The position numbers and the translations under genes are program-made. From the NCBI GenBank assembly GCA_017935325.1, contig JAGBHV010000047.1, positions 1 through 56,265 on the forward strand: a stretch of DNA of 56,265 bases. The letters run 5' to 3'. Positions within the stretch are counted from its first letter, which is position 1. Every line of letters starts with the position of its first letter. This document shows positions 3,001-19,061 of this stretch, one piece after another. The notes under the pieces are model-generated. The model did no database searches. It was not told where the DNA came from and worked only from the letters and a program-made list of their open reading frames with translations. This DNA is from Clostridia bacterium (GTDB lineage Bacteria; Bacillota; Clostridia; Oscillospirales; Acutalibacteraceae).

Positions 3001-6000
3001 CGGTGTTATTGATTCAAATGCACTTGCTATGAATGAGGATACAAATGCTCCTCAGATACAGATTAAAAACACAACTGCAGGCGGTGAAATTTCAGGTACA
3101 TTCAACGTTGGTGGTATAGTCGGCGAATTTGCTGTATATCAGGGCAAACTCAACGAGCTTACAGAGTCTATCATATCTGATTGTATCGTATCTGCAAGAA
3201 TTACTCCTCTTTCAGCAGCAACTGAGCGTTTCGGTGTTATTATCGGTTCAATCGAAGGTAATACCGATAGTAGTGATTCTGTTACAGAAACAGAAACGAA
3301 TAAGAAATCTCCGTTCCCTGAACAGGATTCAAACGGTAACGTTGTTGAATACGCAGTTAAACCATTCGATAAGATTTTCTATTCATCTTATACTGCAGGT
3401 ACTTATGATCTTTACGGTCTTTCAGTAATTAAAGCATATCAGGAACCCGTTCACGGTGTATTCTTTGATACAATTTACGACGTAAACAAGGTAGTTTATA
3501 ACTTTGAAACTGACGATGGTGTAGTGGAACTTCCTGTCAGCGTCGTGACAGACGGTTTCGTAGCAACTGATCCGACTGCATCATACCAGTGGTTCGGTGA
3601 TACAGTTTACAGTTTCTCTGCAGAATTCAAAGAGCTTCTTGCTGCAAACGAAGGCTCAGGTACACCTTTCGGATTCTCAATTGCAGGTAAAGACTTTACT
3701 CTTGTTGAAGACGGTGTTCAGTCATCGAATCAAGAAATTTTCTATGTAGGTCCTCCATCACAGTCTGATATAGATATAGGACTTAATACAGAAAAATATC
3801 CTTATCGAATTTATGTTCAACAGTTCAATACTGCAGACCTTGTATTTACTTATACAAACGGACTTCAGATTGGTATTCCCGTAATCTGCGGTGTTAACTT
3901 TGAAGGTGAGGGTACAGCAGAAAACCCGATTCAGGTTTCAAATGAGGATATCTTCTATCATATCGTTAAGGTTCTTCCCTCATATTCATTTATTCAGACA
4001 GCAGACCTTGACTTATCAGATAAGACAAAATATCCTGCAACAAGTCTTGCACAGCTTATTCCCAACTTTACAGGTACTTATGACGGTGGTAATCATTCAA
4101 TCACAGGCTTCGATGTAACAATCGAAAGTGCCGAATCTCCCGTTGGTATCTTCAGCAAAGTTTCAGGCGCAAAAACCGATGTAGATGGCAATGTAATTCC
4201 TAACATCAAAGACCTTACATTTGTTAACTGCTCAGTAAACAGCGGTGAATGTGATAAGGGTACAGGTGTTGCAATCGGTGAACTCGCAGACGGTGCAACA
4301 GTTTCTAATGTTAAGGTTGAAAATTCGGTTGCAACTTCCAAGCTTGGCAACGTAGGCGGTGCAATCGGTACAGTAACAGGTGCATCAGTTGCTGATAAAA
4401 TTACAGTAATCGGTGGCACTGTTGAGGCTGAAAAAGGCTCAGCAGGCGGTGCAATCGGCACAGTTATTGAAGATACTGCGCAAGTAACTTCACCCGTAGT
4501 TAAAAACACAACTGTAACTTCAGGCTCAGTTGATGCAGAAGGTAACTATGAGGGTAGCGACAGTTACGAAGACATCGCAGGCGGTATCGTTGCTCAGGCA
4601 CATGGCACTATTACAGGCCCTGAATCAACTGAAACAGATGCAGACGGCAACCCGATTTATCTTAACGCAGTTGAAAATGTTACAGTACGTGCTCTTGTAG
4701 CAGGTGGCGCAGTCGGTGCAGTTTACAAAACAAACATTGCAGAAGACGTGAACATTACTCATGAACTTACTCTCAAAGATATAAGAGTTTCAGGTGCTGA
4801 TGTAACTGCAATATCTAAAGACGGCACAAGAACAGCTCGCGGTGCAGGTCTCTTAGGCTTCGCAAGAGCAAAAACAGATGTTGAACTTAACAACTGTTAT
4901 GTAAATAACACAACAAAGCTTTCATCAGTAGCTGCATCGGGTGGTATTTCACATAGTGCCGGGGCAGTGGCTGACGTTGATGAAAATGTTCTTTCACTCG
5001 AATTTATCGATGTTGAATCTTACGCAACAGTAAATGCACATGAAGCAGGCAATGACGGTACAGTCCGTGCAGCTTCGCTTGTGGCTTACATCAATAACGC
5101 TCCCGCAATTCTTACATTTGACGGTTGCGTTGCAGGCGGTAAGATTACAGGTAAAGCAATGACGACATTCGTCGGCGGCGTAATCGGCGGATTTGGTGAA
5201 AACTTTGCTTCAAACGAAATCACCCACGAACTCTTCAAAAACGGTGTTATCAGTGCTGAACTTGAATGTATTGACGGTCATTCAAACAACGTTACACTCA
5301 AGTCAGTTCACAGAAGAGGTAAGTTTATTGCAGGATATGCTGAAGGAATGTTCCAAGAAAAAAACTTCTCAACAATGTTCCAGAATAACTACTATTCAAC
5401 ATATCCAGATAACATCCCGTTCTTCGCAACAGAAACATGGGACACTAAAGGTCCTCTTGACAGTTATCTTGCACAGGTTGAGAACGGATTTACAGATATC
5501 AATGTTAACAACCTTGAAATCGCTGATGAATTCAAGTCAGGTTGGAACAAAGTTGCGATTACAAAATCTAAGGGTTCTGAAACAATACTTTATGCAAGAC
5601 TTAACGAAGAATTTGCTTCACTTCCTTACGGCAGTGAAAATAACAGGCGTAATGCAGTTGCAGCAGGTGGCTTCAGCCTTATGGAAACTGCAAAAGATGC
5701 AGATGGCAACCCAATAAGCTGTATTGAACTTGTAGGTACACCTTCACAGACAGAAAATATCGGCGAGTTTGAACTTGTAGTTAAACCTACAGATTACGGT
5801 GCAGAAATGCTCGTTGCGGAATATAACTGTGGTCTTAAAACAACTGCACAGATTATTTCTGTTGAAATTGAAGGTGACGGTTCTGAAGAAAATCCCTTCC
5901 TTATCAGCACACCTACACAGCTTCGTGTTGTAGCTTACCTTACAGTAGGTAACTACCATTTCAGACAGATTAACGATATCGACCTTTCAAATTCTTATGC

Positions 6001-9000
6001 TGAAACAGGTACAGATACAGACAAGTTTATCCATAACAACGGTAAAAAATTCTATGCTCCTATCGGTACTGATACAGCACCTTTCGACGGTGTATATGAC
6101 GGTCAGGGTTATAAGATTAAAGGTGTTAAATCAGACCGTGGTAACGAAAACGACATCGGCGTATTTGGTGTTATCAAACGTAACGGCGAACTTATTCCTA
6201 AAATCAAAAACCTCCACGTTGAGCTTATGGCTCCCGACCAGAAGGTGAATGGTATTCTCGGTGGCGAGAATGTAGGCGGTATCGCAGGTAGAATCGAAAA
6301 TGGTATTATTGAAAACTGTTCAGTAACAGTAGGTACTGTAACAGGTAAACAGAATGTAGGCGGTATTGCAGGTCACTTCACAAGTTCAAGAATCATCAAC
6401 TGCTTTACTCAGTCTGATGTAAACGCAGTTAATAGTGAAGTTGAACCATACGCAGGCGGTATCGTAGGTTATGTAAATGATGCAGTAAACTTTAATTCAA
6501 CAATTTCAGGTTGCTTCGCATCAGGCAGTATCTACGCGTCAGCAAGTTCTGCAACAGTTGACCGCTCAAATGCAGCAGGTATTGTAGCTTTCCTTGAAAA
6601 CTCAACAGACCTTGTGATTGACAACTGTCTCTTCACAGGTACAACCTCAAGTGGTAACGGTATCGTAGGCGGTAATAACTATCTTAAATTTATCATGACA
6701 ATGTCTGACTGTATCGATGCAGGTCAGAATGTTGCGATGGAAAACGATAAATTTGTGAAGATTCCTACTGCAGTTGCTTCTTCAACAACTCTTGGTACAG
6801 GTACAATTACAATGTCAAACCTTTACTACGATAGTGCACTTCTTAAAGTGAATACAGACGTGGACGAAGCAGGTCAGGCGAACTTGGCAAAAATCACAGG
6901 TAAGCCTACATCAGAACTTATCAATGTTTCAATGGGTGAGGGATGGACATCAATTGCAGGACATTATCCTGTGCCCGCAGTTTCAGAAATTACTGTTACA
7001 ACTTATGATGAAAATTATAACGTAACAAATACTGAAACAAAGGTTGACCCCTATTCAGATGCTTACGCTAAATTCTTGTCAGCTCCCATCCAGACAAGTG
7101 AAACTGAAGAAGAAAACGACATCACTAAAGTTGCTTACGGTCAGGGACTTGTATATCCCGTAACACTTCTTACAAATGTTGACGGAAATAAGGTAACTTA
7201 TTCTTCATCAATCTTTGATACAACAGATACAGTTGCATATCCCGAAGGCTTCGACACAGCTCTTTACGGTAACCGTACATCACAGGAGGTAGAAGTTGAA
7301 GGCGAAGACGGTACAAAGACAACAGAAACAATTGTAACAGACAATAAAAATGTTGACCTTCTCTTCGGTGACGATGCAGAAACAGGCAAAACAACAGTTT
7401 ACAGAAACATCTTTGATACAACAAAAGGCATTGCAGAAAGAGGAGGCTTTGACACTACACCCACAAAGAATACATTTGTCAATGCAGGTGCTGCTTCAGG
7501 CGGTGTATTCTCAAACAAAGAAGCATATTATAATGCACAGACTCCTATAATCTTTGCAACTGCAAAAATCAACGGTGTGGATGTACAGAGAGATATTAAG
7601 CTTGCTCTCAGCCAGGGAACAACTTACTGTATCGCAACACAGCGTCAGCTCTACGCTCTCGGTAAAGCAGAATATGAGCTTGAAGAGGGTACTAAGTTCT
7701 CCAAATATTATGGCTCTACTTTCAACTACAAGCTTATTACTGATATCGATTGTGGCGACAACGAAACATTGTTCACTCCTATCGGCCTTGATGCAATAGC
7801 TAACGGCGGTTATACAGGTCAGTTTGATGGTTCAGGTCACACAATCAAAAACCTTAAGATTGCACAGAACGGCGAAGATTATGTTGGTATGTTTGCAATG
7901 GTTTCTAAAAACTGGAACAGCCCCTATGACCCCTGCGTGAAGAACCTTACTCTTGAAACCCCCACAGTTGTGGCAACAGGCACAACTTCAGGCGGTCAGC
8001 AGACAGGCGGTAACTACGTAGGTGCACTTGTCGGTCACGTTATGGGCAGTGAAGATATTGTTATTGAAAACTGTCACGTAATCGGTTATGCCGAATATGA
8101 CGAAAAGGGTAACATTCTTCCCGATACAGTCAAAGGCTCAGTAACAGGTAACGGCTCTTATGTGGGCGGTCTTATCGGTAAAGTTGATTATCCCACAACT
8201 GTAATCAGGAGTTGTAGTTCATCAGTGCTTGTTTCAGGCTCTAAAGATGCTGTAGGCGGTCTTATAGGTGATTCAGCAGCAACAGTAGAATCTTGTTACG
8301 CAACAGGTAATGTTGTTTGTGATAATATTTATAACACCCAGAATAATGAGAGAGTATTCGGTGTTGGCGGTCTTATAGGTATCATGTCAAACGGTACTGT
8401 AAACCAGTCTTTCGCATCAGGTAACGTTGAAGTTAAGAAATTCACTTCAGGCAATAACGCATTCATTAACGGTGACCTGGGTATCGGCGGTTTTGTCGGT
8501 GTTGTGAAAGAAATGAAAGACCCCGTTTCACAGGCTGATATAACAGGCGACGTAATCACAGAATGCTTCAGCGGCGGTAACGTTAAATTCGGTACTGAAA
8601 ACAGCACTTCAGCAATCAGACCATATACATCAACTGCAATCGTTGGTGTTGGTGGTTTCAGCGGTATCAACCGTGAGGGAATTGCTCATGCATATTCTTC
8701 AGCTGCAGTTAATGCAACATTCGGTGATATTATCGCAAGAAACTCAGGTGCAAGCTACGGTGTAGGTATCGGCGGTGTTGCAGGTGTGGCACTCGGTAAT
8801 GTAGAAGACGTTTATTCTTCAGGTTCAGTAGCTCCTGCTTACGCATCAATTGATTCAACTAATAACCCGGATAACTGCTACTTCGGAAAAGGCGGTACAG
8901 TCGGTACTAAGATGAATTCAGGTGCAACAGTAAGATACTGTTACTACGATAGCTGGACCAATACTGACCCCACACTTACATCAATCGGCGGCCAGACAAA

Positions 9001-12000
9001 TAATCAGGAAGCAAGAGGTCTTACAACACTTGAACTCACAAGCGGTAAGAAACCTGCAAACACAACCTTCTCTGATTATTGGGGCTTCACACCAAATGCT
9101 TATCCTTATCTGAAAACACTTCTTGCAGAAGATTCAGATAACTATATTATGACTAACTCAATCCTTTCTGTTGTTTGCGTAAACGTTGCATATGATGACG
9201 TTTCAGCAAAAACAGGTGCAGGTATCACTCAGGCTCTTACAGTTCCGTCAGAGTTCAAGTATACAGATGAAAACCTTGAGGAACATGTATACCAGCTTGA
9301 CTGGGCAGGTGCAACACTTTCAGGTAACCATGCTGCTATCAGGAGAACACGTAACACTCGTGAATATGTTGACGTTGTGGCACAGGTTAAGGGTTATGAA
9401 CAGTATGCAACACGTGTTTACAGCCGTCTCTGCGCAGACATGAAGGGTACATCTGAACAGCCCTATCTTATCGGTAACGAAGCAGACCTTGATCATATGA
9501 ATATGACTGCTGACGAACTTGCAGCAGCAAAAGAAGCTTACACAGGCTTCTATGACCAGTGGGCAACACCGCTCGGCACCGGTAACGAGCAGATAGAAGG
9601 CAAAGTACACTATCAGCTTATGTCACATATCGAAGTTGACAATACTGTACGTCCCATTCCCATTGCTCCTGCTTCTTACACTTATGAAGTAACTGTTTCA
9701 GATGCAGAGGGTAACTCAACAACTGAGAATAAGACCTTCAATTATCAGGGCTTTATGCTCAAGGGTAATAGCTACTCAATCAAGAATGTAAGCACAACAG
9801 GTTATTACTTCGATACAATTGATGAAAATTCAATAATCAGTAACGTAATCTTTGAAAACTTTACATTCACAGGAAATAATTCAGCAATCGTCAAAGTTAA
9901 TAACGGTACTCTTCAGGATGTATACGTTAAAGCAACAATAGGCGATGGTACTGCAGATATTTCTAATGCAGCAGGTCTTGTAGCAACAAATACAGGCACA
10001 ATCGATGGTTGTATGGTAGATGCTACAATCAAGGGTGCTAAAGAAAATGTCGGTGTAATGGCAGTTACCAATAACGGTACAATCAAAAACTCAGGTACTG
10101 CAGGCACACTTGATACATCAGCAGGTGCGAATGTAGATAAAATCGGTGCATTTGTTGTAAGCAACAATAAAACAGTTGAAGATTCATTCTCAATGGCAGA
10201 CGTAAATGTTCTTGCCGCTGAAAATGCGGTTGTAAACCATGTTTCAGGTTTTGCAGCAATCAACAAAGGCACAATGGACGGTGTATACACAAGGTCAGCA
10301 ATTTCATTTGCTAACGCTCCTGCAGATACACTTACAGTCGGTTCACTTGTTGGTGAAATCACTAACACAACAGATGCAGAGCCCGTAACAAATTCTTATG
10401 CGGCAGGTCTTCTTGGATACTTTAACGGAGCACAGGATTCAATCCTCTTCGGTACAGTACCCGCAACTATGAACAAACTTTCAAGCGTTTATGTTGATAA
10501 ATCACTTGCAGGTGAAAAATCAGCAAACAGCTATAAGTATTCAGCATCACTTTCAAGCATTATGAGTATGCAGCATATGCCCGATGCTATGAAGTATGAT
10601 GCAACGAATAACCCTGAAGGCATTTTCGTTGCAGGTGATGCAGATAAACTTACACTTCCTCAGCTTACATCAATCCTGAATGCTGAAAATCATCAGGTTG
10701 TTGATTCAGACGGTAACCTTATCTATGTTGATACTTCTGTAACAGATAAAGTTGTTACTTACACAATCTTCACAGAAACAGTTGTTGAAGGTGAGGGTGA
10801 AGAAGCAGAAACAGTATCTGTAAGAAAATACAGATGTTCAGACGGTAACGTTTACTTCGCAGACGGAAGTGACAACGTAACTGATGAAAACGGAAATATT
10901 ATTGTTCCCGTTGAAAACCTTAAACTTCAGTATGCAATTTACCTTGAAGACAAGGTTGTTATCAGAAACTATGATGTAATCAAGGCTTACTCACAGATTT
11001 CATCAATGACAATCAAAACCGGTCAGAGCCAGTATGCAGACAGACTTGCACCTAACTCATCAGATTCTTCACTTCACGGTGCGGTGCTCAATTCAACTGT
11101 AAGTAAAGTTGACGGTATTCAGTTTGAGCCTGTATCAGGTCAGAATATTGTTGGTATCAACAACGCAACTGATGTATTGACAACTAATAATACTGCAGGT
11201 GCGGAAACAATCAGAGTAAGAAATAATAACGTGATTAAACTTTCACGTGGTATGGAAATTCAGCCCACACTTTACATCGATGTTGCGGTAAGCAATGCGG
11301 CATTACGTCAGCTTAACCCCAACTTCTCAGACGGTGCAGGTACAAAAGATAAGCCTTACGTAATCAGTAACGCAGATTCTCTTACATCACTCCATTACTA
11401 CGGTACAGAAAGCGATCTCTACTTCGTACTCGGTAATGACATTGATATGAGTGAAGTTAAGGACTTCCAGATTCACCACTTCACAGCACATCTCAATGAC
11501 CTTCCTGAAAATGCAGAAGATACTCACCAGTACGCAATCCAGAACTTCAATTCAACAGAAGGTCATGGCGGTCTCTTCGGTACAATCGAAGACGGTGCAG
11601 TAGTCAATAACGTTGCTCTTACTGCAACAATTGAAGGTAGTGAGGAGTACACAGGTGCTCTTGCAAACATTATCAAGAATGCAACTGTTACAAACTGTGT
11701 AGTTTCTGCAAACGTAACTTCAACTGCAACAGCTGATGAATACAGTGCTCCCGCAACAGGTATCCTGGCAGGTATTGTTCACGAAAACGCAACAATCAGC
11801 GGTATCGTTACAACAGGTAACGTAACTGCTTCTGCAGGTGTAGCAGGTGGCGTAATCGGTTCAGCTCAGTCTGCCACAATCAGTGAAGTTCTTTCAACTG
11901 CAAACGTAGGCGAAGGTAACACAGCAGGTATCGTAGGCGAAATGCTTGAAGGCGCAACACTTGCAAACGCTCTTTACGGCGGCGTTGCACAGAGCAAGAA

Positions 12001-12955
12001 ACCCATAGTTGGTACTTGCGTTGACGAAACAGCAATTACTGAAACTTACTACGATAAGCAGACTAATAAGAACATTGGTGAAGAAGATGAAGTAATCGGC
12101 ACAGGTAAATCAACAAAAGAATGTGAAAACCTTACATTCGATGATATGTTTATGTATGTTGATGAAAACGGCGGTTACTATCCCGTACCTGTAACAATTG
12201 TAGATACAATCGGCATAGGTGTTGAAACATCTCACGAAGGTTATGGTTCAACTGCAGCTCTTGCCGCAGCAACAATGAACTTCTACTTGGGTTCAACCTA
12301 CGGTCAGATTGGTTACTACACATCAATGCAGTTTATAAACATGGCTTCAGGTTCAGCAGTTACTGCAACTGAAGAAGGAAACGGCGGATACTTCTCAATC
12401 GTTTCAGGCGACAAAGTTTATACAATCAAAACTGCTAAGTTTAACGAAGAAATGGATCCCGGAATCAGCTTCAGCCTTGAAAATGGCGCAGTGAGAACAG
12501 TTTATCCCGGTCTTGTAAGAAATGCTAACATCTCTTACACAATCGTAAATCCGTCGAACTTTGATGTAACAGATAAACTTCTCGGCGTACTCTTCAAGAG
12601 TGTGGCGGTTAAGGGAAGTTCAGACAACGTTCAGGTTCTTAACGATTTCACAAACGAAATCGACGTTAAACAGACAAATATCGATGCTCTTGCAATTGCA
12701 AAAGAAGTTGATGGCTTCTATGTAGGCGAAATGTTACCTGACGGTTATGAATACGAGATTTCTGCAACCCTTGGCGGTCAGGAAATCTCAAGCGATAACA
12801 TTCAGGTTGAAGAAAACATTTACGGCACATACATCAAACTTCCCGATGTAAAAGATGCAGATGGCAACACAGCAACAGATGTTGAACTTACACTCACAAT
12901 TGTCGAATCAGACAGACCCTGGGGTGTAAACTCAGTTAAAAACATTCTCTGGTAA
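2..12955 (+). CDS. Giant GLUG-repeat surface protein (5' end outside window)
   Basis: The frame is open from the window edge, so the true start and signal peptide lie upstream; more than 4,300 residues are visible. It is filled with short GLUG-type repeats (GGIVG/GGIIG/GGAIG followed by SGCTV-like strands), the pattern of right-handed beta-helix adhesins. At least six longer modules recur, entering near bases 1640, 3905, 5870, 7610, 9445 and 11330. Each opens with a G-x-GT-x-x-x-P-(Y/F)-x-I motif, then an NDIDMS-like strand and an F-x-G-x-YDG-x-G-x-x-I element, then GLUG strings. Ig-like linkers appear between modules. The last ~250 residues lack GLUG repeats and end in SVKNILW with no LPXTG motif or membrane segment, so attachment is unexplained. 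It sits directly upstream of the signal-peptidase/TasA-like genes, which may anchor or export it. Adhesin or surface-fibre role is inferred; the repeat family call is firm. Confidence 0.85.
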   Translation, partial: QITNCTVENTEITSTKNVKEHAYIGGIIGGTSMNSTEGCYAEITGCKVTGCTLSAKAYGIGGVVGYAPDTHNKISSCEVTGTTLTSTASNGFTYASLGAVAGAFGGSTVENCTVTDCKVDGECASGVVSRLINEAGTTSTISGCTVTNSEIVAPDIAGGILAQVSAYATSSCYGDKVVTGCKVLPLKDSNDKEISAVKAAVAGGIVGNVQQFSNRNLTVSGCTNLATIETTGKKGSISDAAGGIVGRLQSGQGTSGILITGCLSQGTVKGNSNLGGIIGMNNGNAHTGVNKLVKDCYVTTKFTSGNLAVVKGLIIGNVGYQAKNNSSVLAENVVYSSLNTREALFGNIEETSGGYDMNKGADQTRGITVDFTTSAPNTTTAGKRFLAHFANGVVGYYDGMMGTSNTVQLHTNLYVGSSSYENAGTTVSYKYGGVTCSTRVANLAATTVPRFAVGNLPELTGTDGNAFTTPATSPFSTTANSSKILVGCSTATGTANATYNKLTDVSIQTFDKKCNATVKTTYTGIINGETVKFDVGFNVVVNGEHAFDGDGTEYNAFLIYTAEDLLAIKQHHDNPSSKDDYKDNPEFYYEAYYCIMNDIDMTEELATENKSFAPIGTVDEPFKGKITTYHDEQMKISNLLINDPKQNADYAYNDAYTVTDADGNPTVEYSDALGLFGYTAAGAEIYNVELENVNILSVPGSTNGFLGTRSGALVGVANDTIIQNVKVSGASSVAIEGSFGGRAGAVGGIVGQAGNNVVMTDVQVVGTDNENRAVVKGQYCVGGIVGSSADTTGCSITNAVVENTDVTNLATSGVSIAGGIAGQYSGVIKGSAEVKDDEGNVATPATRVKVNNVSVLGTVVGGVVGSGNVTNLALGGCDLTIEDADVTSTIIEVTDTVRADANAGPNGIAGGILGQSCDSYHYYITDCTTDGNTTVTSGYCAGGIVGRASNRGKGQLQTETCLIISDCSTLAKVNQLNAPTTNTLTIHPSTKNKTGAGAVIGVIDSNALAMNEDTNAPQIQIKNTTAGGEISGTFNVGGIVGEFAVYQGKLNELTESIISDCIVSARITPLSAATERFGVIIGSIEGNTDSSDSVTETETNKKSPFPEQDSNGNVVEYAVKPFDKIFYSSYTAGTYDLYGLSVIKAYQEPVHGVFFDTIYDVNKVVYNFETDDGVVELPVSVVTDGFVATDPTASYQWFGDTVYSFSAEFKELLAANEGSGTPFGFSIAGKDFTLVEDGVQSSNQEIFYVGPPSQSDIDIGLNTEKYPYRIYVQQFNTADLVFTYTNGLQIGIPVICGVNFEGEGTAENPIQVSNEDIFYHIVKVLPSYSFIQTADLDLSDKTKYPATSLAQLIPNFTGTYDGGNHSITGFDVTIESAESPVGIFSKVSGAKTDVDGNVIPNIKDLTFVNCSVNSGECDKGTGVAIGELADGATVSNVKVENSVATSKLGNVGGAIGTVTGASVADKITVIGGTVEAEKGSAGGAIGTVIEDTAQVTSPVVKNTTVTSGSVDAEGNYEGSDSYEDIAGGIVAQAHGTITGPESTETDADGNPIYLNAVENVTVRALVAGGAVGAVYKTNIAEDVNITHELTLKDIRVSGADVTAISKDGTRTARGAGLLGFARAKTDVELNNCYVNNTTKLSSVAASGGISHSAGAVADVDENVLSLEFIDVESYATVNAHEAGNDGTVRAASLVAYINNAPAILTFDGCVAGGKITGKAMTTFVGGVIGGFGENFASNEITHELFKNGVISAELECIDGHSNNVTLKSVHRRGKFIAGYAEGMFQEKNFSTMFQNNYYSTYPDNIPFFATETWDTKGPLDSYLAQVENGFTDINVNNLEIADEFKSGWNKVAITKSKGSETILYARLNEEFASLPYGSENNRRNAVAAGGFSLMETAKDADGNPISCIELVGTPSQTENIGEFELVVKPTDYGAEMLVAEYNCGLKTTAQIISVEIEGDGSEENPFLISTPTQLRVVAYLTVGNYHFRQINDIDLSNSYAETGTDTDKFIHNNGKKFYAPIGTDTAPFDGVYDGQGYKIKGVKSDRGNENDIGVFGVIKRNGELIPKIKNLHVELMAPDQKVNGILGGENVGGIAGRIENGIIENCSVTVGTVTGKQNVGGIAGHFTSSRIINCFTQSDVNAVNSEVEPYAGGIVGYVNDAVNFNSTISGCFASGSIYASASSATVDRSNAAGIVAFLENSTDLVIDNCLFTGTTSSGNGIVGGNNYLKFIMTMSDCIDAGQNVAMENDKFVKIPTAVASSTTLGTGTITMSNLYYDSALLKVNTDVDEAGQANLAKITGKPTSELINVSMGEGWTSIAGHYPVPAVSEITVTTYDENYNVTNTETKVDPYSDAYAKFLSAPIQTSETEEENDITKVAYGQGLVYPVTLLTNVDGNKVTYSSSIFDTTDTVAYPEGFDTALYGNRTSQEVEVEGEDGTKTTETIVTDNKNVDLLFGDDAETGKTTVYRNIFDTTKGIAERGGFDTTPTKNTFVNAGAASGGVFSNKEAYYNAQTPIIFATAKINGVDVQRDIKLALSQGTTYCIATQRQLYALGKAEYELEEGTKFSKYYGSTFNYKLITDIDCGDNETLFTPIGLDAIANGGYTGQFDGSGHTIKNLKIAQNGEDYVGMFAMVSKNWNSPYDPCVKNLTLETPTVVATGTTSGGQQTGGNYVGALVGHVMGSEDIVIENCHVIGYAEYDEKGNILPDTVKGSVTGNGSYVGGLIGKVDYPTTVIRSCSSSVLVSGSKDAVGGLIGDSAATVESCYATGNVVCDNIYNTQNNERVFGVGGLIGIMSNGTVNQSFASGNVEVKKFTSGNNAFINGDLGIGGFVGVVKEMKDPVSQADITGDVITECFSGGNVKFGTENSTSAIRPYTSTAIVGVGGFSGINREGIAHAYSSAAVNATFGDIIARNSGASYGVGIGGVAGVALGNVEDVYSSGSVAPAYASIDSTNNPDNCYFGKGGTVGTKMNSGATVRYCYYDSWTNTDPTLTSIGGQTNNQEARGLTTLELTSGKKPANTTFSDYWGFTPNAYPYLKTLLAEDSDNYIMTNSILSVVCVNVAYDDVSAKTGAGITQALTVPSEFKYTDENLEEHVYQLDWAGATLSGNHAAIRRTRNTREYVDVVAQVKGYEQYATRVYSRLCADMKGTSEQPYLIGNEADLDHMNMTADELAAAKEAYTGFYDQWATPLGTGNEQIEGKVHYQLMSHIEVDNTVRPIPIAPASYTYEVTVSDAEGNSTTENKTFNYQGFMLKGNSYSIKNVSTTGYYFDTIDENSIISNVIFENFTFTGNNSAIVKVNNGTLQDVYVKATIGDGTADISNAAGLVATNTGTIDGCMVDATIKGAKENVGVMAVTNNGTIKNSGTAGTLDTSAGANVDKIGAFVVSNNKTVEDSFSMADVNVLAAENAVVNHVSGFAAINKGTMDGVYTRSAISFANAPADTLTVGSLVGEITNTTDAEPVTNSYAAGLLGYFNGAQDSILFGTVPATMNKLSSVYVDKSLAGEKSANSYKYSASLSSIMSMQHMPDAMKYDATNNPEGIFVAGDADKLTLPQLTSILNAENHQVVDSDGNLIYVDTSVTDKVVTYTIFTETVVEGEGEEAETVSVRKYRCSDGNVYFADGSDNVTDENGNIIVPVENLKLQYAIYLEDKVVIRNYDVIKAYSQISSMTIKTGQSQYADRLAPNSSDSSLHGAVLNSTVSKVDGIQFEPVSGQNIVGINNATDVLTTNNTAGAETIRVRNNNVIKLSRGMEIQPTLYIDVAVSNAALRQLNPNFSDGAGTKDKPYVISNADSLTSLHYYGTESDLYFVLGNDIDMSEVKDFQIHHFTAHLNDLPENAEDTHQYAIQNFNSTEGHGGLFGTIEDGAVVNNVALTATIEGSEEYTGALANIIKNATVTNCVVSANVTSTATADEYSAPATGILAGIVHENATISGIVTTGNVTASAGVAGGVIGSAQSATISEVLSTANVGEGNTAGIVGEMLEGATLANALYGGVAQSKKPIVGTCVDETAITETYYDKQTNKNIGEEDEVIGTGKSTKECENLTFDDMFMYVDENGGYYPVPVTIVDTIGIGVETSHEGYGSTAALAAATMNFYLGSTYGQIGYYTSMQFINMASGSAVTATEEGNGGYFSIVSGDKVYTIKTAKFNEEMDPGISFSLENGAVRTVYPGLVRNANISYTIVNPSNFDVTDKLLGVLFKSVAVKGSSDNVQVLNDFTNEIDVKQTNIDALAIAKEVDGFYVGEMLPDGYEYEISATLGGQEISSDNIQVEENIYGTYIKLPDVKDADGNTATDVELTLTIVESDRPWGVNSVKNILW

Positions 12956-12975: not shown

Positions 12976-13005
12976 GCAGGGGAGAAGATAAAAATTCTCC
13001 CCTGC
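12976..13005 (+). other. Strong intercistronic hairpin after the giant gene
   Basis: Perfect 11-bp arms GCAGGGGAGAA and TTCTCCCCTGC enclose an 8-nt loop. No U-tract follows on the plus strand, so it is a poor terminator. It is more likely an mRNA 3'-end stabiliser or partial attenuator that separates the level of the giant gene from that of the small fibre genes 36 bp downstream. Confidence 0.6.
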
Positions 13006-13040: not shown

Positions 13041-13670
13041 ATGGCTAAGAAAAAAGAAAAAAACTCTGCCAAAAGTCTTGCGATGGTTCTCATCACAGGA
13101 ATAACATTGGTAGCGGCTACTCTTTGCTGGTTTGCAATTATGGACAGAAGTTCAGTAGAAGAGCTTAAGAGAATTGATGTTAAAAACGAATCATCAACAT
13201 TCGCAAATATCTATTTCGGCGCAGACGCAACCGGCGAAATAGCAATAACTCCTGAAAGCATAAAACAATATGTCAAGATTGACACCAGAGAGATTAGTCT
13301 TGAAAACATGTTCCCGGCTGCGGAATATACATACATGGCAGAATTTAAAGATGCAAATGTAGGAAATAAAATCACACTCGATTTAAACGACATCGCAAAT
13401 GTAACAGGTAATCTTACATCAAAAGTAAAATTAAACCGCAGAATTTCTCTGATGACGTCAACCGGAAAAGAAACTACAGATACAAGCTGCAGATATGCAG
13501 CAGACGAGACAACTCTCGACCAAGAAAGTACTTTTGAATATACAGTAACCCGAGCAGGCACATACAGAGTTTATTTCTCTTTTAAAATAGATGAAAACGT
13601 AACAGTTGAAAACGGAAGAAATATGTCTGTAAATATTGAAAATGTAGACGCAGTAATAAGTAGTTCATAA
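13041..13670 (+). CDS. Small membrane-tethered protein with SipW-type signal (TasA/camelysin-like)
   Basis: 209 residues. The N-terminus is basic (KKKEK), followed by a hydrophobic segment (~residues 13-32) ending in a CWFAIMDRS stretch. This resembles the AWFTD-type sequence after the signal in SipW-dependent proteins such as TasA, camelysin and their many clostridial relatives. The rest is predicted beta-rich (alternating polar/hydrophobic strands) with no recognised catalytic motif. RBS AGAGAGG lies 9 bp before ATG. It follows the giant gene across a hairpin and precedes the first signal peptidase by 30 bp, as expected for a substrate-peptidase pair. Role as a fibre subunit is inference. 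Confidence 0.65.
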   Translation: MAKKKEKNSAKSLAMVLITGITLVAATLCWFAIMDRSSVEELKRIDVKNESSTFANIYFGADATGEIAITPESIKQYVKIDTREISLENMFPAAEYTYMAEFKDANVGNKITLDLNDIANVTGNLTSKVKLNRRISLMTSTGKETTDTSCRYAADETTLDQESTFEYTVTRAGTYRVYFSFKIDENVTVENGRNMSVNIENVDAVISSS

Positions 13671-13700
13671 ATAATTAGTTAAGAATAAAGTGATTAAACA

Positions 13701-14276
13701 ATGAAAATATTTAAGAAAATAACATCAGCTTTAGCAACAATAATATTTATAATCTGTCTTGTGCTTCTTGCTCTCGTAATGGTAACTCCGAAAGATGCAG
13801 CAGGTAATAAAAGAGTAAATATTGCGGGCTACAGTATTATGACCGTAATGACAGGCAGTATGGAGCCTGCTTATCAGGTTGGTGACATAATAGTAATTAA
13901 GAAAACAAATGAAAACGAATTGCAAGTAAAAGATGTAATTACATTCATTTCAACAGATGAAGAGTTAAACGGTCAGCCGATAACTCATCGAATTATAGAT
14001 ATAACAGAAGAAAACGGACAGAAAAAGTTCGAAACAAAAGGCGATAATAACCGGATAGCTGACGAAACACCTGTCACAAGCGACAGAATTCTCGGTAAAG
14101 TTCAGCTGAGAATTCCTTTTGTGGGCAGAGCTGTTAATTTTATGCAGACAAACAGAATTGCATTTTTCCTGATTGTCATTCTTCCTATGCTTGTAATTAT
14201 GGCGTTGGAAGTGAAAGATATAATTATGATTGCACGTAGTGGTGACGAAGATGAAGGCGAAGAAGACAATAAGTAA
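13701..14276 (+). CDS. Signal peptidase I, SipW/ER type (first of three)
   Basis: 191 residues with an N-terminal membrane segment (~6-27) and a C-terminal one (~150-175). The nucleophile motif is TGSMEP. The residue that is Lys in ordinary bacterial signal peptidase I is His here (PITHRI), the Ser/His arrangement of SipW and eukaryotic/archaeal ER-type enzymes. A KGDNN motif supplies the conserved Gly-Asp. These enzymes cleave TasA/camelysin-type preproteins on the outer face of the membrane. The context of four such substrate-like genes agrees. Weak RBS (AAAGTGA), suggesting coupling with the upstream gene. Confidence 0.9.
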   Translation: MKIFKKITSALATIIFIICLVLLALVMVTPKDAAGNKRVNIAGYSIMTVMTGSMEPAYQVGDIIVIKKTNENELQVKDVITFISTDEELNGQPITHRIIDITEENGQKKFETKGDNNRIADETPVTSDRILGKVQLRIPFVGRAVNFMQTNRIAFFLIVILPMLVIMALEVKDIIMIARSGDEDEGEEDNK

Positions 14277-14748
14277 TATCTTTACAACGGTAATAATTCT
14301 TTTGTCTTTAGTTCTTCTCACAATCGGTCTTTTGCCGAAAGTTACTTCTTACGACGGTTATTATGTAACGTCGGACAGTATGTACCCCGCAATCAGAAAA
14401 GGTGATCTTGTTTTTACTAAAGAGGTTGCTTTTGAAGACGTTGAAGTAGGCGATGTGCTTACTTTCACAAGAGAAGGCAGTGAAAAATGGTTTTCGCACC
14501 GTGTTGTCAGAATCAAAGAGTCTGAAAAAGCATTCAGAACAAAAGGTGATAACAATAATGTTGAAGACCCGGGATACACTCCTTACGATGCAGTTGTAGG
14601 CAGAGTGGAAAAGAAAATGCCTTTAATTGGCTTTCTGCCAATGATGTTGGCAACAACATGGGGTAAAGTAGTTTTAGTATTAGTTTATGTTTTGTATATA
14701 GCAGTTGAGGTTGAAAATGCTGCCTCTAAAAAACGAAAGAAGGGATAA
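14251..14748 (+). CDS. Signal peptidase I, SipW/ER type (second of three)
   Basis: About 165 residues from the ATG at 14251 (MKAKKTISN), which lies inside the 3' end of the preceding peptidase gene (26-bp overlap); an upstream in-frame GTG at 14230 is less likely because it would sit before the hydrophobic leader. An N-terminal membrane anchor is followed by TSDSMYP (catalytic Ser), WFSHRV (catalytic His) and KGDNNN. A C-terminal membrane segment (VVLVLVYVLYIAVE) completes the usual two-helix topology. Not a duplicate fragment of the first enzyme: both are full length with intact catalytic motifs but are clearly diverged. The overlap suggests translational coupling. Confidence 0.88.
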   Translation: MKAKKTISNIFTTVIILLSLVLLTIGLLPKVTSYDGYYVTSDSMYPAIRKGDLVFTKEVAFEDVEVGDVLTFTREGSEKWFSHRVVRIKESEKAFRTKGDNNNVEDPGYTPYDAVVGRVEKKMPLIGFLPMMLATTWGKVVLVLVYVLYIAVEVENAASKKRKKG

Positions 14749-14750
14749 CT

Positions 14751-15434
14751 ATGAAAAAGAGAATACTTTGTGTAATACTTTCCCTTGCGGCAGTATTCAG
14801 TCTTGTAGGCTTTCACGCAACAGAAACCTGGTTTGGCAGCGGTGAAAACAAGAGTATGAAATTAAGCTCAGGTGACCTTGACTTTTCTGTTGAGGGTGAC
14901 CTTAAGCTTAAAAATGAAGATGCTCTTGTTCTTCCCGGCCAAGAGCTTGAGCTTGCAAAGGCGGTTGTAATTACCAACTATTCAACAATCGATACAGAGC
15001 TTCGTGTAAGCGTTGAATGTACATACGACGGCTCAACAGAGGTTTTCAAATGGATTGAGTTTGTAAACGCAGAAAATAGCAACTGGGAAGTAGGCGATGA
15101 TGGTTACATTTACTATGCCCCGGGTGGTAACAGACGAATTCCTGCAACTGAAGGAAAGCCAACTGAAACCACAACTGTTGCCGAAACTACAACAGAAGCA
15201 GGCACAGAGGTCGGCGAAACAACAGAAACAACAACAGACGGTGTTGCAGCAGTTGATTATGAAAATCCTGCTGAAAATGAAATTCCTTTAGATGGCAAAA
15301 TCAAAATCAGCGGTGATGTTCCTATTGACTTGCAGGGTAAAGAACTGAACCTTGAATTTGTCATTGAAGCAAAACAGGCAGATTTAGTAGAATGGGAACA
15401 TTTTACACCCGCAGAAGAAGTAGCTAATGGATAA
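14751..15434 (+). CDS. SipW-dependent-type secreted protein with Thr-rich stretch
   Basis: 227 residues. A signal segment (~4-21) is followed by ETWFGSGENKSMKLSSGDLD, which matches the camelysin/TasA plan of an aromatic residue then Ser/Asn-rich then a G-(D/T)-LD strand. The mature part contains an NYSTIDTELRVSV strand typical of TasA-type Ig folds. A Thr/Glu-rich low-complexity stretch (ETTTVAETTTEAG-like) lies at ~residues 138-163, looking like a flexible spacer. It begins 2 bp after signal peptidase 2 and overlaps the next peptidase gene by 8 bp. Likely a substrate of the locus peptidases; polymerisation is inferred, not shown. Confidence 0.7.
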   Translation: MKKRILCVILSLAAVFSLVGFHATETWFGSGENKSMKLSSGDLDFSVEGDLKLKNEDALVLPGQELELAKAVVITNYSTIDTELRVSVECTYDGSTEVFKWIEFVNAENSNWEVGDDGYIYYAPGGNRRIPATEGKPTETTTVAETTTEAGTEVGETTETTTDGVAAVDYENPAENEIPLDGKIKISGDVPIDLQGKELNLEFVIEAKQADLVEWEHFTPAEEVANG

Positions 15435-15954
15435 GATTTTAAGAATATTAAGAAATGCATTCTGTGTTTTAGTGGCAGGATTGTTGCTGCTTATAGCAGT
15501 GGTTTCAATCTGCGGTGCAAGAGGTTATTCTGTTGCGTCAAACAGTATGAACCCTGAGCTCAGCAAAGGTGATGTTGTTTTTGTAAAAGAAACACCCTTT
15601 GAAAAGCTCCAAAAAGGTGATATTGTTACAGTTGAATTCAAAGTAAAAGACGGCACAACATACACTCACAGAATCGTTTCAATTGATTATGATAAAAAAG
15701 AAATAAAAACAGCAGGCGATAAAACAGGCCTTGTTGATACAGAAAGTGCAACTGCCGACCAGATTAAAGGTAAAGTGTGGTTTTCAATACCGCTTTTAGG
15801 TTATCTTTCATTATGGCTTACAAATACTGACTATGCTGCAGCTATTGCAATTTCAGTGTTGGCAGTTATGGTAATCGGTTTTGTGGCAGGCAAAGTTTAT
15901 AAAAATAAGACGAGAGGTGATAAAAATGAGCACAGCGAAGAAAAGAACAATTAA
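15427..15954 (+). CDS. Signal peptidase I, SipW/ER type (third of three)
   Basis: 175 residues. N-terminal helix (~11-30), catalytic Ser in ASNSMNP, catalytic His in YTHRIV, conserved Gly-Asp in AGDKTG, and a C-terminal helix (AAIAISVLAVMVIGFVAG). The start overlaps the end of the upstream substrate-like gene by 8 bp, and its own end overlaps the next substrate-like gene by 29 bp, so the order substrate-peptidase-substrate is very tight. Same Ser/His class as its two neighbours; three such enzymes in one operon is uncommon. Confidence 0.88.
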   Translation: MDKILRILRNAFCVLVAGLLLLIAVVSICGARGYSVASNSMNPELSKGDVVFVKETPFEKLQKGDIVTVEFKVKDGTTYTHRIVSIDYDKKEIKTAGDKTGLVDTESATADQIKGKVWFSIPLLGYLSLWLTNTDYAAAIAISVLAVMVIGFVAGKVYKNKTRGDKNEHSEEKNN

Positions 15955-16762
15955 ATATGTATCTTTAATCGCATCGTTGATTCTTGTATTTTCATATTTC
16001 AGCCTTCTTTCACCTACAAGTGCATATTTTTATAAAAAACAGAGTTCAAACACAACACTCGAATTTGCAATGTTCGATGTCGATGCAGAACAGACTCTTT
16101 TTGAAAATGATGATATTATTAAATTCAAAGGTGCAACAAAGCTTTGCGATACAGAAGAGCTTCTCTTTGATGAAGTTGCTATTGTAAAGGAAGTTACTCT
16201 CATAAATAAAGGTCAAGCACCTGCCCGAATCCTTGTAAATATAACACCAGATGAAGAATCAGTTACAAACGGACTTCGTTATGTTGCATTTGCTGAAAAA
16301 GTTGAAAATGCTCCCGAAACTGCAGAAGAAGGCGAGGTAACCTCCACCACAGTTACAAAAGGTGCATTAAAGCAAGAACTTGAAACACTTTTCGGAATAA
16401 CTGCTGATTCTGAGCCGTCAGCTATTGAGTCTGCAATTAATGATCATAATGAATCATTGAGAAACACTAACGGAAATGTTAATAAAACAATTATTGCTCC
16501 CGGTGAGAGAGCAAAAGTAAGAATTGTTTTCTGGGTTGAATATGATAAAGTGCAGACTGCAGCAGGCGGAGAAGCTAATTGGCAGAATGCAGGAGAAATA
16601 AAAAATATCACATTCCCCTGTAATATCAGAATTATGGCAGTGCAGGATGATGACGAAGCAGTGGAAGATGCTTTGACAGAAAAAACAACTGTTGAAGAAA
16701 CAACCACAGAAGCAACGTCAGCAGAAGAAACTACAGTGGAAGTAACCACAGAACAACAGTAA
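15926..16762 (+). CDS. SipW-dependent-type secreted protein with C-terminal Thr/Glu-rich tail
   Basis: 278 residues from the ATG at 15926, preceded by GAGGTGA; an in-frame upstream ATG at 15881 lies deep in the peptidase gene and lacks the leader position. Signal segment ~9-28, then SAYFYKKQSSNTTLEFAMFD, the AYF-type sequence of SipW substrates. The body carries an INKGQAPARILVNI strand, a common feature of TasA-like Ig domains. It ends in ~25 residues of Thr/Glu/Val repeats (ETTTEATSAEETTVEV), similar in style to the internal spacer of the earlier substrate gene. No sorting motif. Likely a fibre or adaptor subunit (inference). Confidence 0.68.
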   Translation: MSTAKKRTIKYVSLIASLILVFSYFSLLSPTSAYFYKKQSSNTTLEFAMFDVDAEQTLFENDDIIKFKGATKLCDTEELLFDEVAIVKEVTLINKGQAPARILVNITPDEESVTNGLRYVAFAEKVENAPETAEEGEVTSTTVTKGALKQELETLFGITADSEPSAIESAINDHNESLRNTNGNVNKTIIAPGERAKVRIVFWVEYDKVQTAAGGEANWQNAGEIKNITFPCNIRIMAVQDDDEAVEDALTEKTTVEETTTEATSAEETTVEVTTEQQ

Positions 16763-16780
16763 TTTTGGCAGGTGACAGAA

Positions 16781-17392
16781 TTGAAAAAGAAATTTATTGA
16801 AAATAAAAAATTCAGATTAACAGTAATTTTGTCAGTTGTTCTTACAATTGTTATAGGCTCAACCCTTGCGTGGTTTATTCAGGATATAATTGAAGAAAAC
16901 AAGCAGAAAAAAGATTTTCTGGCTTCAAACTTCCGGGCAGAGCCTGTATGTTATTTCGATGGCACAGAAGAAACTTTTGTCGGCGAAGACGGATTAATCA
17001 CTCTCAGCACAAACCCTGAAGACGACAACTACATCGGCAAATTCCGTGTTGATGTAAAATACAAGGGTGACGGTGCAGGTTACTTAAGAGTTAAAATGGT
17101 GCATGAATATTCAATTGGCGGCAATTCAACTCAGCACCCTGCAAATGTACCTTATACTGTGTCAGACGATTGGTACGATAACCGCGGTAATGACTATTGT
17201 TATTATTACAAAAATGAGCTTGATGCAGACGGCGATGCAGAAAAGACACTCGGATTTATCACAGCGAACAATGCGATAGATTTAGGTGAACTTGCAGACG
17301 GCATTGTAATCAAAGTTGCAGTTGAATCCGACATGGTACAGGTTAACAGATACCCGCAGGTATGGGGTATAGACAAACTTCCTTGGAAATAA
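16781..17392 (+). CDS. SipW-dependent-type membrane-leader protein (TTG start)
   Basis: About 203 residues. I chose TTG at 16781 because GCAGGTGA is the ribosome binding site and overlaps the alternative GTG at 16772, which would have no binding site. Leader ~10-30 (LTVILSVVLTIVIG) ends in STLAWFIQD, the AWFxxD-type motif of SipW substrates. The mature part is beta-rich with several Tyr/Asp-rich loops (DDWYDNRGNDYCYYY) and no catalytic motif. It ends 8 bp before a terminator-like hairpin. Role within a surface assembly is inferred from neighbours. Confidence 0.65.
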   Translation: MKKKFIENKKFRLTVILSVVLTIVIGSTLAWFIQDIIEENKQKKDFLASNFRAEPVCYFDGTEETFVGEDGLITLSTNPEDDNYIGKFRVDVKYKGDGAGYLRVKMVHEYSIGGNSTQHPANVPYTVSDDWYDNRGNDYCYYYKNELDADGDAEKTLGFITANNAIDLGELADGIVIKVAVESDMVQVNRYPQVWGIDKLPWK

Positions 17393-17397
17393 AACTT

Positions 17398-17425
17398 AAT
17401 GGACCGAGCAATTCGGTCCATTTTC
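17398..17425 (+). terminator. Terminator-like hairpin
   Basis: Arms AATGGACCGA and TCGGTCCATT with a 5-nt loop, then TTCC. The U-tract is short, so read-through into the following repeat protein gene is likely. Confidence 0.5.
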
Positions 17426-17450
17426 CTAATATTGAAAGCAGGTGACTCTT

Positions 17451-19061
17451 TTGGCAAAGTCAAAGAAAAACAACAAGAAAAAAGCAAAGAAAAACAGTAA
17501 CTATAAAAACGAGGTAGTTGAAAAGAAAGTTCCTAAAAAGTCAGAGAAAAATCAAAAAGAAATTGAACGCAAAGCAAAGCTTAAAGAAAAAGAAAATAAA
17601 AAAGAAGAAAAAGCTCTTGCAAAAAAACGAAAGCTTGAAGAAAAGCTTAAGAAAAAAGAAGAGAAAGCCTTAAAGAGTGACAAGGCGAAAAAAGAAAAGC
17701 CCGAAAAAGAGGAAAAACCCTTAAAGAAGGAAAAAATCAAGGTTGAAGAAAAATCAGTTGCTTCAAAAAGAAACGAAAGAACAGAAACAAAAACTCTTGC
17801 TGATGAAATAGCAGAAAGTCAGAAGAATGAAGCGGTAAATACTGTTGAAGAAACTGCAGAAGAAATTCTGCCTGAAGAAGTAAGTGTTGAACCCGAGGAA
17901 GCAACAGCTGAACCCGAAGAAGAAACAGCTGAACCCGAGGAAGCAACAGCTGAACCTGAAGAAGCAACAGCTGAACCTGAGGAAGCAACAGCTGAACCTG
18001 AGGAAGAAACTGCAGAACCTGAAGAAGAAACAGCTGAACCCGAAGAAGCAACAGCTGAACCCGAGGAAGCAACAGCTGAACCTGAGGAAGCAACAGCTGA
18101 ACCTGAAGAAGAAACAGCTGAAACTGAGGAGGCAATAGCTGAACCTGAGGAAGAAACAGCTGAACCTGAGGAAGAAACAGCTGAACCTGAAGAAGAAACA
18201 GTTGAACCTGAAGAAGAAACAGTAGAACCTGAGGAAGAAAAAGCTGAACCTGAGGAAGAAACAGCTGAACCTGAAGAAGAAACTGCAGAACCTGAAGAAG
18301 CAACAGCTGAACCTGAAAACGATAATGCTGAAGAAACGAAAGGTAAACTGATTCTTGAAGAGGTTGTAGTAGAAAAAGAAGAATCAAAACCGGAAGAAAA
18401 AACTGAAAAGCAGAAAAAGGAAAAAATTAAAAAACTGCCTGCTAAAATTAATCTTCCTGAAATTAACTTTAAAAATATTGATTTGCAGAAACTCAAATCA
18501 ATAAAAATCACAAAAACTCATATAATTATTGCAATTGTAGCTGTTGTTACTCTTGCGGCACTGATTGCAGTGCTTTCTGTTGTGGGAATAGGTAAGCCTG
18601 AATACGCTCCTGCAATTTACAGCGGAAGAAAATTTGCAAGTGATGAAGTGAGCCTTATTGCAATTTCAGATGAACAGCAGCATAAGCTCATAGAAGAAAC
18701 AAATGCAAAAGGAAACACAAGAAAATTCTCATTCTATGCAAATACTGCAGTAACGGTTGAAAAGCAGGATTCACTTCTGCCTCTGGCAATTTCCAACCCT
18801 ACAACAGGAAAACATATTCTTCTTTGTTCTATTGTTGATGAAGACGGCGTAGTGGTATATCGTTCTCTTGGTATTGAACCGGGAAGATATGTAAGTAATG
18901 TAAGACTTTCGCAGTATCTTGATTTTGGTACAAATGAGTTTACTTTATATGTATCTGCGTTCGAACCCTCAACCGAAAATGATGAAATTGTTTATGAGAG
19001 AGTGGGAACACAGAGAGTAAAACTTAATGTTGTCTGCGGCGTTGATTACGAGTCAGAATAA
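17451..19061 (+). CDS. Lys-rich, Glu-heptad-repeat membrane protein (TTG start)
   Basis: About 536 residues. The start is TTG at 17451 behind GCAGGTGAC, the same arrangement as the preceding gene. Parts in order: an extremely Lys/Glu-rich segment (~1-120), an acidic repeat block of twenty 7-residue units of EPEEATA/EPEEETA type (~147-286), a second Lys/Glu-rich segment, one membrane helix (~356-380, IIIAIVAVVTLAALIAV), and a ~155-residue C-terminal beta-type domain. Positive residues just before the helix predict N-in/C-out, which would put the charged repeats in the cytoplasm and the C-terminal domain outside. The domain is unrecognised. Last gene of the fibre locus; it could be a membrane platform or anchor for the secreted parts (inference). 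Confidence 0.7.
   Translation: MAKSKKNNKKKAKKNSNYKNEVVEKKVPKKSEKNQKEIERKAKLKEKENKKEEKALAKKRKLEEKLKKKEEKALKSDKAKKEKPEKEEKPLKKEKIKVEEKSVASKRNERTETKTLADEIAESQKNEAVNTVEETAEEILPEEVSVEPEEATAEPEEETAEPEEATAEPEEATAEPEEATAEPEEETAEPEEETAEPEEATAEPEEATAEPEEATAEPEEETAETEEAIAEPEEETAEPEEETAEPEEETVEPEEETVEPEEEKAEPEEETAEPEEETAEPEEATAEPENDNAEETKGKLILEEVVVEKEESKPEEKTEKQKKEKIKKLPAKINLPEINFKNIDLQKLKSIKITKTHIIIAIVAVVTLAALIAVLSVVGIGKPEYAPAIYSGRKFASDEVSLIAISDEQQHKLIEETNAKGNTRKFSFYANTAVTVEKQDSLLPLAISNPTTGKHILLCSIVDEDGVVVYRSLGIEPGRYVSNVRLSQYLDFGTNEFTLYVSAFEPSTENDEIVYERVGTQRVKLNVVCGVDYESE
17889..18308 (+). repeat. 20 tandem 21-bp repeats encoding EPEE(A/E)TA heptads
   Basis: Twenty consecutive in-frame units from 17889. 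Most read EPEEATA or EPEEETA; unit 12 is ETEEAIA and units 15-17 end in TV, TV and KA. Codon choices differ between units (GAA/GAG, CCC/CCT), so the array is old enough to have drifted but is still length-variable in principle without frameshift. Confidence 0.9.

Follow-up and report, generated by a model that had tools for sequence, protein, structure and literature searches.

Why should one bacterial operon encode three signal peptidases of the SipW type? The question is raised by a block of eight genes in contig JAGBHV010000047.1 of a gut bacterium of the Clostridia (family Acutalibacteraceae). The analysed window is this entire contig of 56,265 nucleotides (C71 in our numbering), from a 1.97 Mb genome assembly in 96 contigs that is 81% complete. 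In the block, peptidases P1, P2 and P3 are interleaved with the putative exported substrates A to D, in the order A, P1, P2, B, P3, C and D, and followed by KE, a membrane protein with Lys/Glu repeats. SipW operons, in the available portions of their published descriptions, contain a single such peptidase each; the Bacillus TasA system has one SipW. We interpret the locus as a SipW-type cassette that exports and assembles the parts of a surface structure, with each peptidase acting mainly on the substrate of a neighbouring gene, and estimate the probability of this reading at about 0.52.

The gene order, coordinates and common strand (Table 1) are those of an earlier sequence-only reading of this DNA, which had also pointed to overlaps of 8-29 bp at several junctions. 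Overlaps were found at three of them, P1/P2 (26 bp), B/P3 (8 bp) and P3/C (29 bp), and gaps of 2-49 bp at the remaining junctions from A to KE; the starts of P2 and C were taken from reading frames. The same reading had proposed a genome-neighbourhood survey, and a block with several peptidases does recur. A search with the P1 profile gave hits in 121 of the 398 family genomes at E ≤ 1e-24, and loci were annotated for the best of these matches and some weaker ones, which makes the resulting count a lower bound: in the loci fetched, the block is present in at least 25 of the 398 genomes and 7 of the 135 genera drawn (five genomes in g1, two in g15, four in g19, five in g64, four in g88, four in g103 and one in g123, by our genus labels). 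Order and single strand of the genes found agree in all 25 loci and seven genera, so the arrangement is not due to chance. All eight genes are present in 18 loci, P2 alone is missing from three (G108, G332 and G208), and four are cut by contig ends (G003, G149, G128 and G277, the last also without P2). Wider searches with the D profile gave matches in 3 of 394 genomes at the level of the order (G000, G153 and G534, the last from another family) and in 3 of 391 at the level of the class (G000, G1070 and G1109).

The identity of all three peptidases as enzymes of the endoplasmic reticulum (ER) type was confirmed, each exceeding the curated cut-off (51.85 bits) of TIGR02228, the SipW/archaeal/ER-type signal peptidase family. 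Four matches in the source genome pass this cut-off, namely P1-P3 and one on contig C81, which carries genes upstream of the block, and two lie below it. The cut-off of the Bacillus SipW equivalog NF046067 (190) was not reached by P1-P3 (127, 58.5 and 53.5 bits). Bacterial type I signal peptidases have Lys at the position where P1-P3 have His. The retention of Ser and His and the missing Lys described from the sequence hold for all three, and each of the window enzymes carries an active-site set of Ser, His and two Asp. Across loci, this set is complete in every P1 (24 of 24) and every P3 (25 of 25), and in 19 of 21 P2.

Trees were built from 110 SipW-type proteins, including 24 P1, 21 P2 and 25 P3. 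P2 and P3 each form a single clade, with support of 100/97 and 100/96, respectively, and therefore at least these two are older than the genera. P1 forms one clade in the quick tree (support 81), and three changes are needed in the careful tree. By this phylogeny P2 and P3 are old paralogues, P1 being less firmly resolved. Recent duplication as the origin of P2 and P3 is ruled out by the trees, so that the description of the enzymes as diverged, as opposed to near-identical copies, stands.

Each of the substrates A-D begins with a hydrophobic segment that ends in a W/Y-F motif (CWF, TWF, AYF and AWF). In these two features they correspond to the SipW-type substrates claimed by the sequence-only reading; their scores fall under the curated cut-offs for SipW substrates. 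The 25 residues surrounding the W/Y site were compared in 96 substrates; when each was assigned without any member of its own genus, 91 fell into the right one of four signal classes (A 21/22, B 22/25, C 25/25 and D 23/24). Because orthologues share descent, such recognition alone is no proof of separate enzymes. Between genera, signals are more similar than mature parts in A (0.39 versus 0.16, signal higher in 15/15 genus pairs) and in C (0.41 versus 0.25, 21/21 pairs; restricted to rows of 100 or more mature residues, which dropped the short G149 and G332 rows). The two are about equal in B (0.28 versus 0.26, signal higher in 12/21 pairs), and in D the signal lies below the mature part (0.27 versus 0.35, signal higher in 2/21 pairs).

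Profile alignments (hhalign) that include the signal extend over 166 columns between B and D (97.6%), over the first 92 between B and C (94.0%), and over the first 82 between A and D (95.7%); D and C align in the signal region only (92.7%). The alignments used 8 of 24 rows for P1 (A1), 18 of 24 for D (A3), 23 of 25 for B (A4), 22 of 25 for C (A5), 21 of 22 for A (A6), 19 of 21 for the ends of the giant protein encoded upstream (A10), and 15 of 21 for P2 (A11), where both P2 without an active site were left out. The EAKQ strand at the end of B recalls, we presume, TasA. Compared with two Fredinandcohnia proteins encoded 3' of a SipW gene, B gave a profile match of just 26 columns, at a probability of 8%.

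A rather unlikely alternative is that the peptidases have overlapping specificity, that three are kept for dosage or by chance, and that the order of genes reflects duplication history only. According to the accessible part of PMC7395162, SipW of B. subtilis handles two substrates, TapA and TasA, a point in favour of such redundancy. The separate clades of P2 and P3 across genera and the sorting of substrate signals into separate classes argue against it.

Dedicated pairing of peptidases and substrates was assessed by a partial mirror-tree comparison in the 18 of 25 loci having all seven genes, after subtracting the mean of the other genes. Correlations were 0.60 for P2-B and 0.37 for P3-C, with none of 2000 shuffles as high in either case, and 0.38 for P1-A (p 0.0045). 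B adjoins P3 too, yet B-P3 is weaker than B-P2 (0.24 versus 0.60). Robustness was examined in seven data sets (all loci, five with one genus removed, and one without the two noncatalytic P2). P2-B was the best pair in all seven, and P1-A and P3-C in five each. The co-evolution that the sequence-only reading had proposed as a check is thus seen throughout for P2-B, and fails for P1-A and P3-C when genus g1 or g64 is omitted.

A compact locus was found in G534, which belongs to another family of the same order. Its consecutive genes encode an AAA+ protein (68% identity with the C81 one), a relative of the Lys/Ala/Glu-rich protein of C81 (46%), a single peptidase, a secreted 980-residue protein and, last, two more proteins, one small and exported, the other D-like. 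The peptidase occupies the place of P1 and is closest to it (34%), and a further signal peptidase match lies directly upstream. The 980-residue protein is related to the giant protein (E 1.8e-10) and has the C-terminal end VLPWGIYNIDCN. The small exported protein carries a class A signal (12.3, next best 3.6), and its comparison with A gave no significant match (E 0.035); the D-like protein matches D weakly (E 3e-5). Because this locus has one peptidase, at the P1 place, it suggests, from one genome, that P2-B and P3-C were added to the block as peptidase-substrate pairs.

Among the three peptidases, P2 is the exceptional one. The P2 gene is missing from all four g103 loci, and a P2 profile search of these four genomes found no P2, matching P1, P3, at least one P4-type peptidase (P4 being the peptidase encoded on C81) and one weak general place. 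In two of 21 loci P2 is without catalytic residues: His and one Asp are lost in G093, and Ser and His in G327. These two P2 are sisters, 36% identical to each other, of full length and still with the C-terminal hydrophobic segment. For redundancy, it counts that g103 manages four substrates with P1 and P3 and that catalytic residues can be lost from P2; the full length of both inactive P2, at such divergence, is left unexplained by it.

The same two proteins speak for a hetero-oligomeric signal peptidase complex of P1-P3 in the membrane, in which P2 would contribute structure or recognition and could do without catalysis. Overlapping reading frames would also allow coupled translation of its members. 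We consider such a complex distinctly unlikely, as the active site of P2 is intact in 19 of 21 loci and P2 can vanish altogether, as in g103.

The sequence-only reading had further suggested that the peptidases act as sortase-like enzymes which join subunits and assemble a polymer. Their number exceeds the apparent need for export, and the operon is without a sortase gene (two sortase matches in the genome lie on contigs C34 and C44). Nothing positive was found for a joining role, and such a role of P2 is disfavoured because P2 is lost in g103 and persists at full length without His, once also without Ser, in 2 of 21 loci. In addition, BsaA polymerises without the sortase encoded near it, and also on production in E. 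coli, as stated in the part of PMC7395162 consulted. A sortase-like role is therefore highly improbable. C-termini of the LPXTG type, expected of a sortase-assembled pilus, were not seen by eye in A-D, KE or the giant protein.

Several observations weigh against the cassette with dedicated peptidases. In the phylogeny, P1 is single in just 40% of bootstraps of the careful tree. In the mirror-tree comparison, P1-B (0.31, p 0.0075) nearly equals P1-A, and the P1-D link that the model needs is without support (-0.09). Leaving out g1 shifts the best partner of P1 to B and that of P3 to D, and leaving out g64 makes B the best partner of both. Furthermore, the supported pairs are also neighbours in the DNA, which confounds the comparison. 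The low class scores of B signals in the four g103 loci without P2 (9.7, 6.9, -5.7 and -14.5), against a mean of 16.9 in the 19 loci with intact P2, count in favour of the cassette, but represent drift in one evolutionary event, and one locus with intact P2, G231, is slightly negative too (-0.3). The signals of B are typical in both loci with inactive P2 (21.5 and 18.7), and the difference between the 19 loci with intact P2 and the six with P2 absent or inactive is not significant (p 0.11). None of the window A-D matched TIGR04088 (cognate_SipW, cut-off 19) at E 0.1; the upstream substrate on C81 reached 14.6 bits and 1 of 18 D members matched at E 0.077. TIGR04090 (BsaA family) matched D alone among A-D, under its cut-off; with the E limit set at 1, it matched four of 18 D members and two of 23 B members across loci. 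Searches of solved structures with profiles of A-D yielded no credible relative. Finally, no signal class fits the D-like protein of G534 well, and it is without a class D signal; this and the unsupported P1-D link lower our confidence in the cassette.

The suggestion of one peptidase per substrate is thus moderately supported by signal classes, the partial mirror-tree and a compact relative without P2-B and P3-C. In its strict form it is impossible, because four substrates face three peptidases here and two in g103.

The data directly show the constant gene order, the age of the P2 and P3 paralogues, the unbroken active sites of P1 and P3, the signal classes, the disappearance of P2 or of its active site, and the link to the upstream module. 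From these we infer cleavage, pairing, fibre formation and the roles of KE and the AAA+ pair. In the cassette as we envisage it, A-D would be exported by Sec and their signals removed by membrane-bound Ser-His-Asp peptidases of the SipW kind. P1, probably the ancestral peptidase of the block, would serve A and D, with P2 acting on B and P3 on C. Once released, the substrates would probably build a fibre, or else a base, to which the giant beta-repeat protein is held, and KE would be a membrane partner. Assembly is probably driven or controlled by an upstream module, which comprises P4, two further membrane or exported proteins, a membrane AAA+ protein and a DUF2357-type protein.

The sequence-only reading had linked the block to a giant protein, and a gene of the GLUG-repeat type does lie directly 5' on the same strand, its stop 85 bases from A. 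PF07581 (GLUG) scores 20.6 in its window part and 29.4 in the N-terminal piece (cut-off 20.5). The start of this gene lies beyond the contig end, and the first 141 bp of the window equal the last 141 bp of C81; in G005 the upstream genes and the block stand together on a single contig. The tail of the giant protein has an invariant W-G, ending W-G-[VIL], in all 19 aligned giants (of 21 ends). D members end in the consensus W-G-I-x-x-L-P-W, with the first W in 18/18 and G in 14/18. In the loci scanned, W-G-[VILF] occurs in the last 25 residues of 40 of 886 open reading frames of at least 150 residues. Of these 40, 39 are giants, giant ends or D-type, with one locus counted twice, and one is unrelated.

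A D-like domain at the giant C-terminus is not supported, as hhalign covers the 10-residue tail only, at a probability of 1%; profile comparison of this C-terminus with B and with A gave no match. In G1109, from another family of the class, a D-like substrate of the SipW kind, which has WGIDVLPF close to its C-terminus, lies beside a single SipW (L095, 8140-8694), so the W-G tail is possibly older than the block. Another compact locus, in G043 (L091, 4085-10243), has one P1-like SipW, a 1160-residue protein ending in TWGVHRVIV and a D-like protein ending in LWGINEIPTS.

A joint extension of these ideas, speculative and unlikely as a whole, is that P2 is becoming a non-cutting escort which would recognise the B signal and bring it to a complex without need of catalysis, that the W-G tail of the giant protein and D would mark attached parts, and that dedicated pairs would load subunits in order onto a machine powered by CoCoPALM (see below).

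KE of the cassette has 16 AEPEE units in its Lys/Glu-rich N-terminal part, one hydrophobic (membrane) segment and a conserved outer domain that was aligned across 22 loci. No relatives of KE were found in viral contigs. A second small KE-like membrane protein lies 3' of KE in other genera (L020, L073-L078 and L080-L086), and none was seen in g1. Also 3' of the block, the window encodes at 19281-19946 a protein with cysteine-rich motifs, by eye of the iron-sulphur type; similar-looking proteins follow the block in G001, G002, G005, G069 and G108. The hairpin between the giant gene and A folds strongly in the four g1 loci examined. Elsewhere its strength did not exceed -6.5 kcal/mol wherever a judgement was possible, which excludes G332. 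Being strong in g1 only, it was rejected as a component of the system.

Table 1. Features of the block and its 5' neighbourhood in the window
Feature	Coordinates	Strand	Remarks
Giant surface protein, GLUG-repeat type	98..12955	+	5' part on contig C81; conserved C-terminal tail RPWGVNSVKNILW
Perfect 11-bp hairpin, between giant gene and A	12976..13005	+	No T run 3' on + strand
Substrate A	13041..13670	+	SipW-type signal (ATLCWF)
Peptidase P1	13701..14276	+	Ser53, His96, Asp115, Asp121; TIGR02228 115.9 bits
Peptidase P2	14251 (ATG)..14748	+	TIGR02228 114.9 bits
Substrate B	14751..15434	+	SipW-type signal (ATETWF)
Peptidase P3	15427..15954	+	Ser40, His81, Asp98, Asp104; TIGR02228 76.1 bits
Substrate C	15926 (ATG)..16762	+	Own signal class (SPTSAYFY)
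Substrate D	16772..17392	+	Weakly BsaA-like, TIGR04090 26.9 bits (under cut-off 60); tail PQVWGIDKLPWK
Hairpin between D and KE	17398..17422	+	Followed by TTTTCC; weak, terminator-like
KE, Lys/Glu-repeat membrane protein	17442..19061	+	Lys/Glu-rich N-terminal part, hydrophobic segment, outer domain

Genes on C81 encode an EAL-domain protein, a membrane protein, a SipW-like substrate, peptidase P4, the AAA+ protein, which has a hydrophobic segment at its N-terminus, and a long protein rich in Lys, Ala and Glu; the giant gene also begins on this contig. The E-x-L motif is the hallmark sought in EAL-domain proteins. The one that heads this module (L015, 1696-2442; PF00563, 151 bits) reads DFYTRV, seemingly without the motif, and may sense cyclic di-GMP and not degrade it. 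The upstream module of G153 (L023, 14940-17927) contains two P4-type peptidases that flank a SipW-like substrate, once more pairing a peptidase with a substrate.

The AAA+ gene is present in 19 of 150 family genomes, and in 17 of the 19 a SipW match lies 5' of it within 2.1 kb on the same strand; in G080 the nearest listed SipW is 13 kb off, and in G128 the contig is cut. Among the 25 genomes with the block, 23 have the gene (all except G108 and G277), which lies upstream of P1 on the same contig and strand, at about 9-22 kb, in 17 and on another contig in six. By its motifs (GISGTGKT, DEMN and TINNDDS) the C81 protein reads as an NxD-type McrB-like AAA+. It remains under curated cut-offs (McrB 22.1 bits, E 5e-5, cut-off 637; AAA_5 18.9, cut-off 22) and matches PADLOC PDC-M26A at E 2.7e-36.

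The accessible part of PMC11090510 describes CoCoPALM as a class of McrB-like GTPases fused to an FtsB-like part and associated with signal peptidases and coiled coils. The upstream module (P4, the AAA+ protein and the DUF2357-type protein) fits this class. Its FtsB-like part is uncertain, with an N-terminal hydrophobic segment and weak FtsL matches. The DUF2357 assignment rests on homology, as three of five homologues pass the PF09823 cut-off and the copy of the source genome gave no Pfam match.

The dedication of signal peptidases to single substrates becomes testable within one operon, because three paralogues, two of them clearly old, are interleaved with four substrates of differing signal class. 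Natural controls form a series: intact P2, P2 without an active site, no P2, and a compact relative with one peptidase. In addition, the uncharacterised CoCoPALM class gains a concrete set of exported clients.

The sequence-only reading had put the operon forward as a candidate undescribed one. This stands for the three-peptidase block, of which no description was found in the literature searched, a scope outside which most subscription papers lie; it does not stand for the upstream module. As far as our searches reach, the block is the new part, and the adjoining module fits the already named CoCoPALM. Module and class have in common a signal peptidase, an NxD McrB-like AAA+ protein with an N-terminal hydrophobic segment and a coiled-coil DUF2357-type partner; the three-peptidase block, its substrates and the giant GLUG protein are not mentioned in the available part of PMC11090510.

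Among SipW operons, sipW-bsaABCRSD of C. perfringens has, in the portion of PMC7395162 consulted, one SipW adjoining an exported substrate, together with a two-component pair. The likeness lies in this adjoining position and in the weak similarity of D to BsaA. The differences are three peptidases here against one, the two-component pair there, with none seen between 13041 and 19061 here, and a giant GLUG protein and AAA+ module that do not figure in the C. perfringens operon as that portion describes it. With the Bacillus TasA/TapA/SipW and B. cereus TasA/CalY/CapP systems, as presented in the available parts of PMC9674648, PMC10151520 and PMC13082335, the locus shares a SipW-type peptidase and short hydrophobic signals. 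Overall, the block has the appearance of specialised and expanded machinery that assembles a structure on the cell surface.

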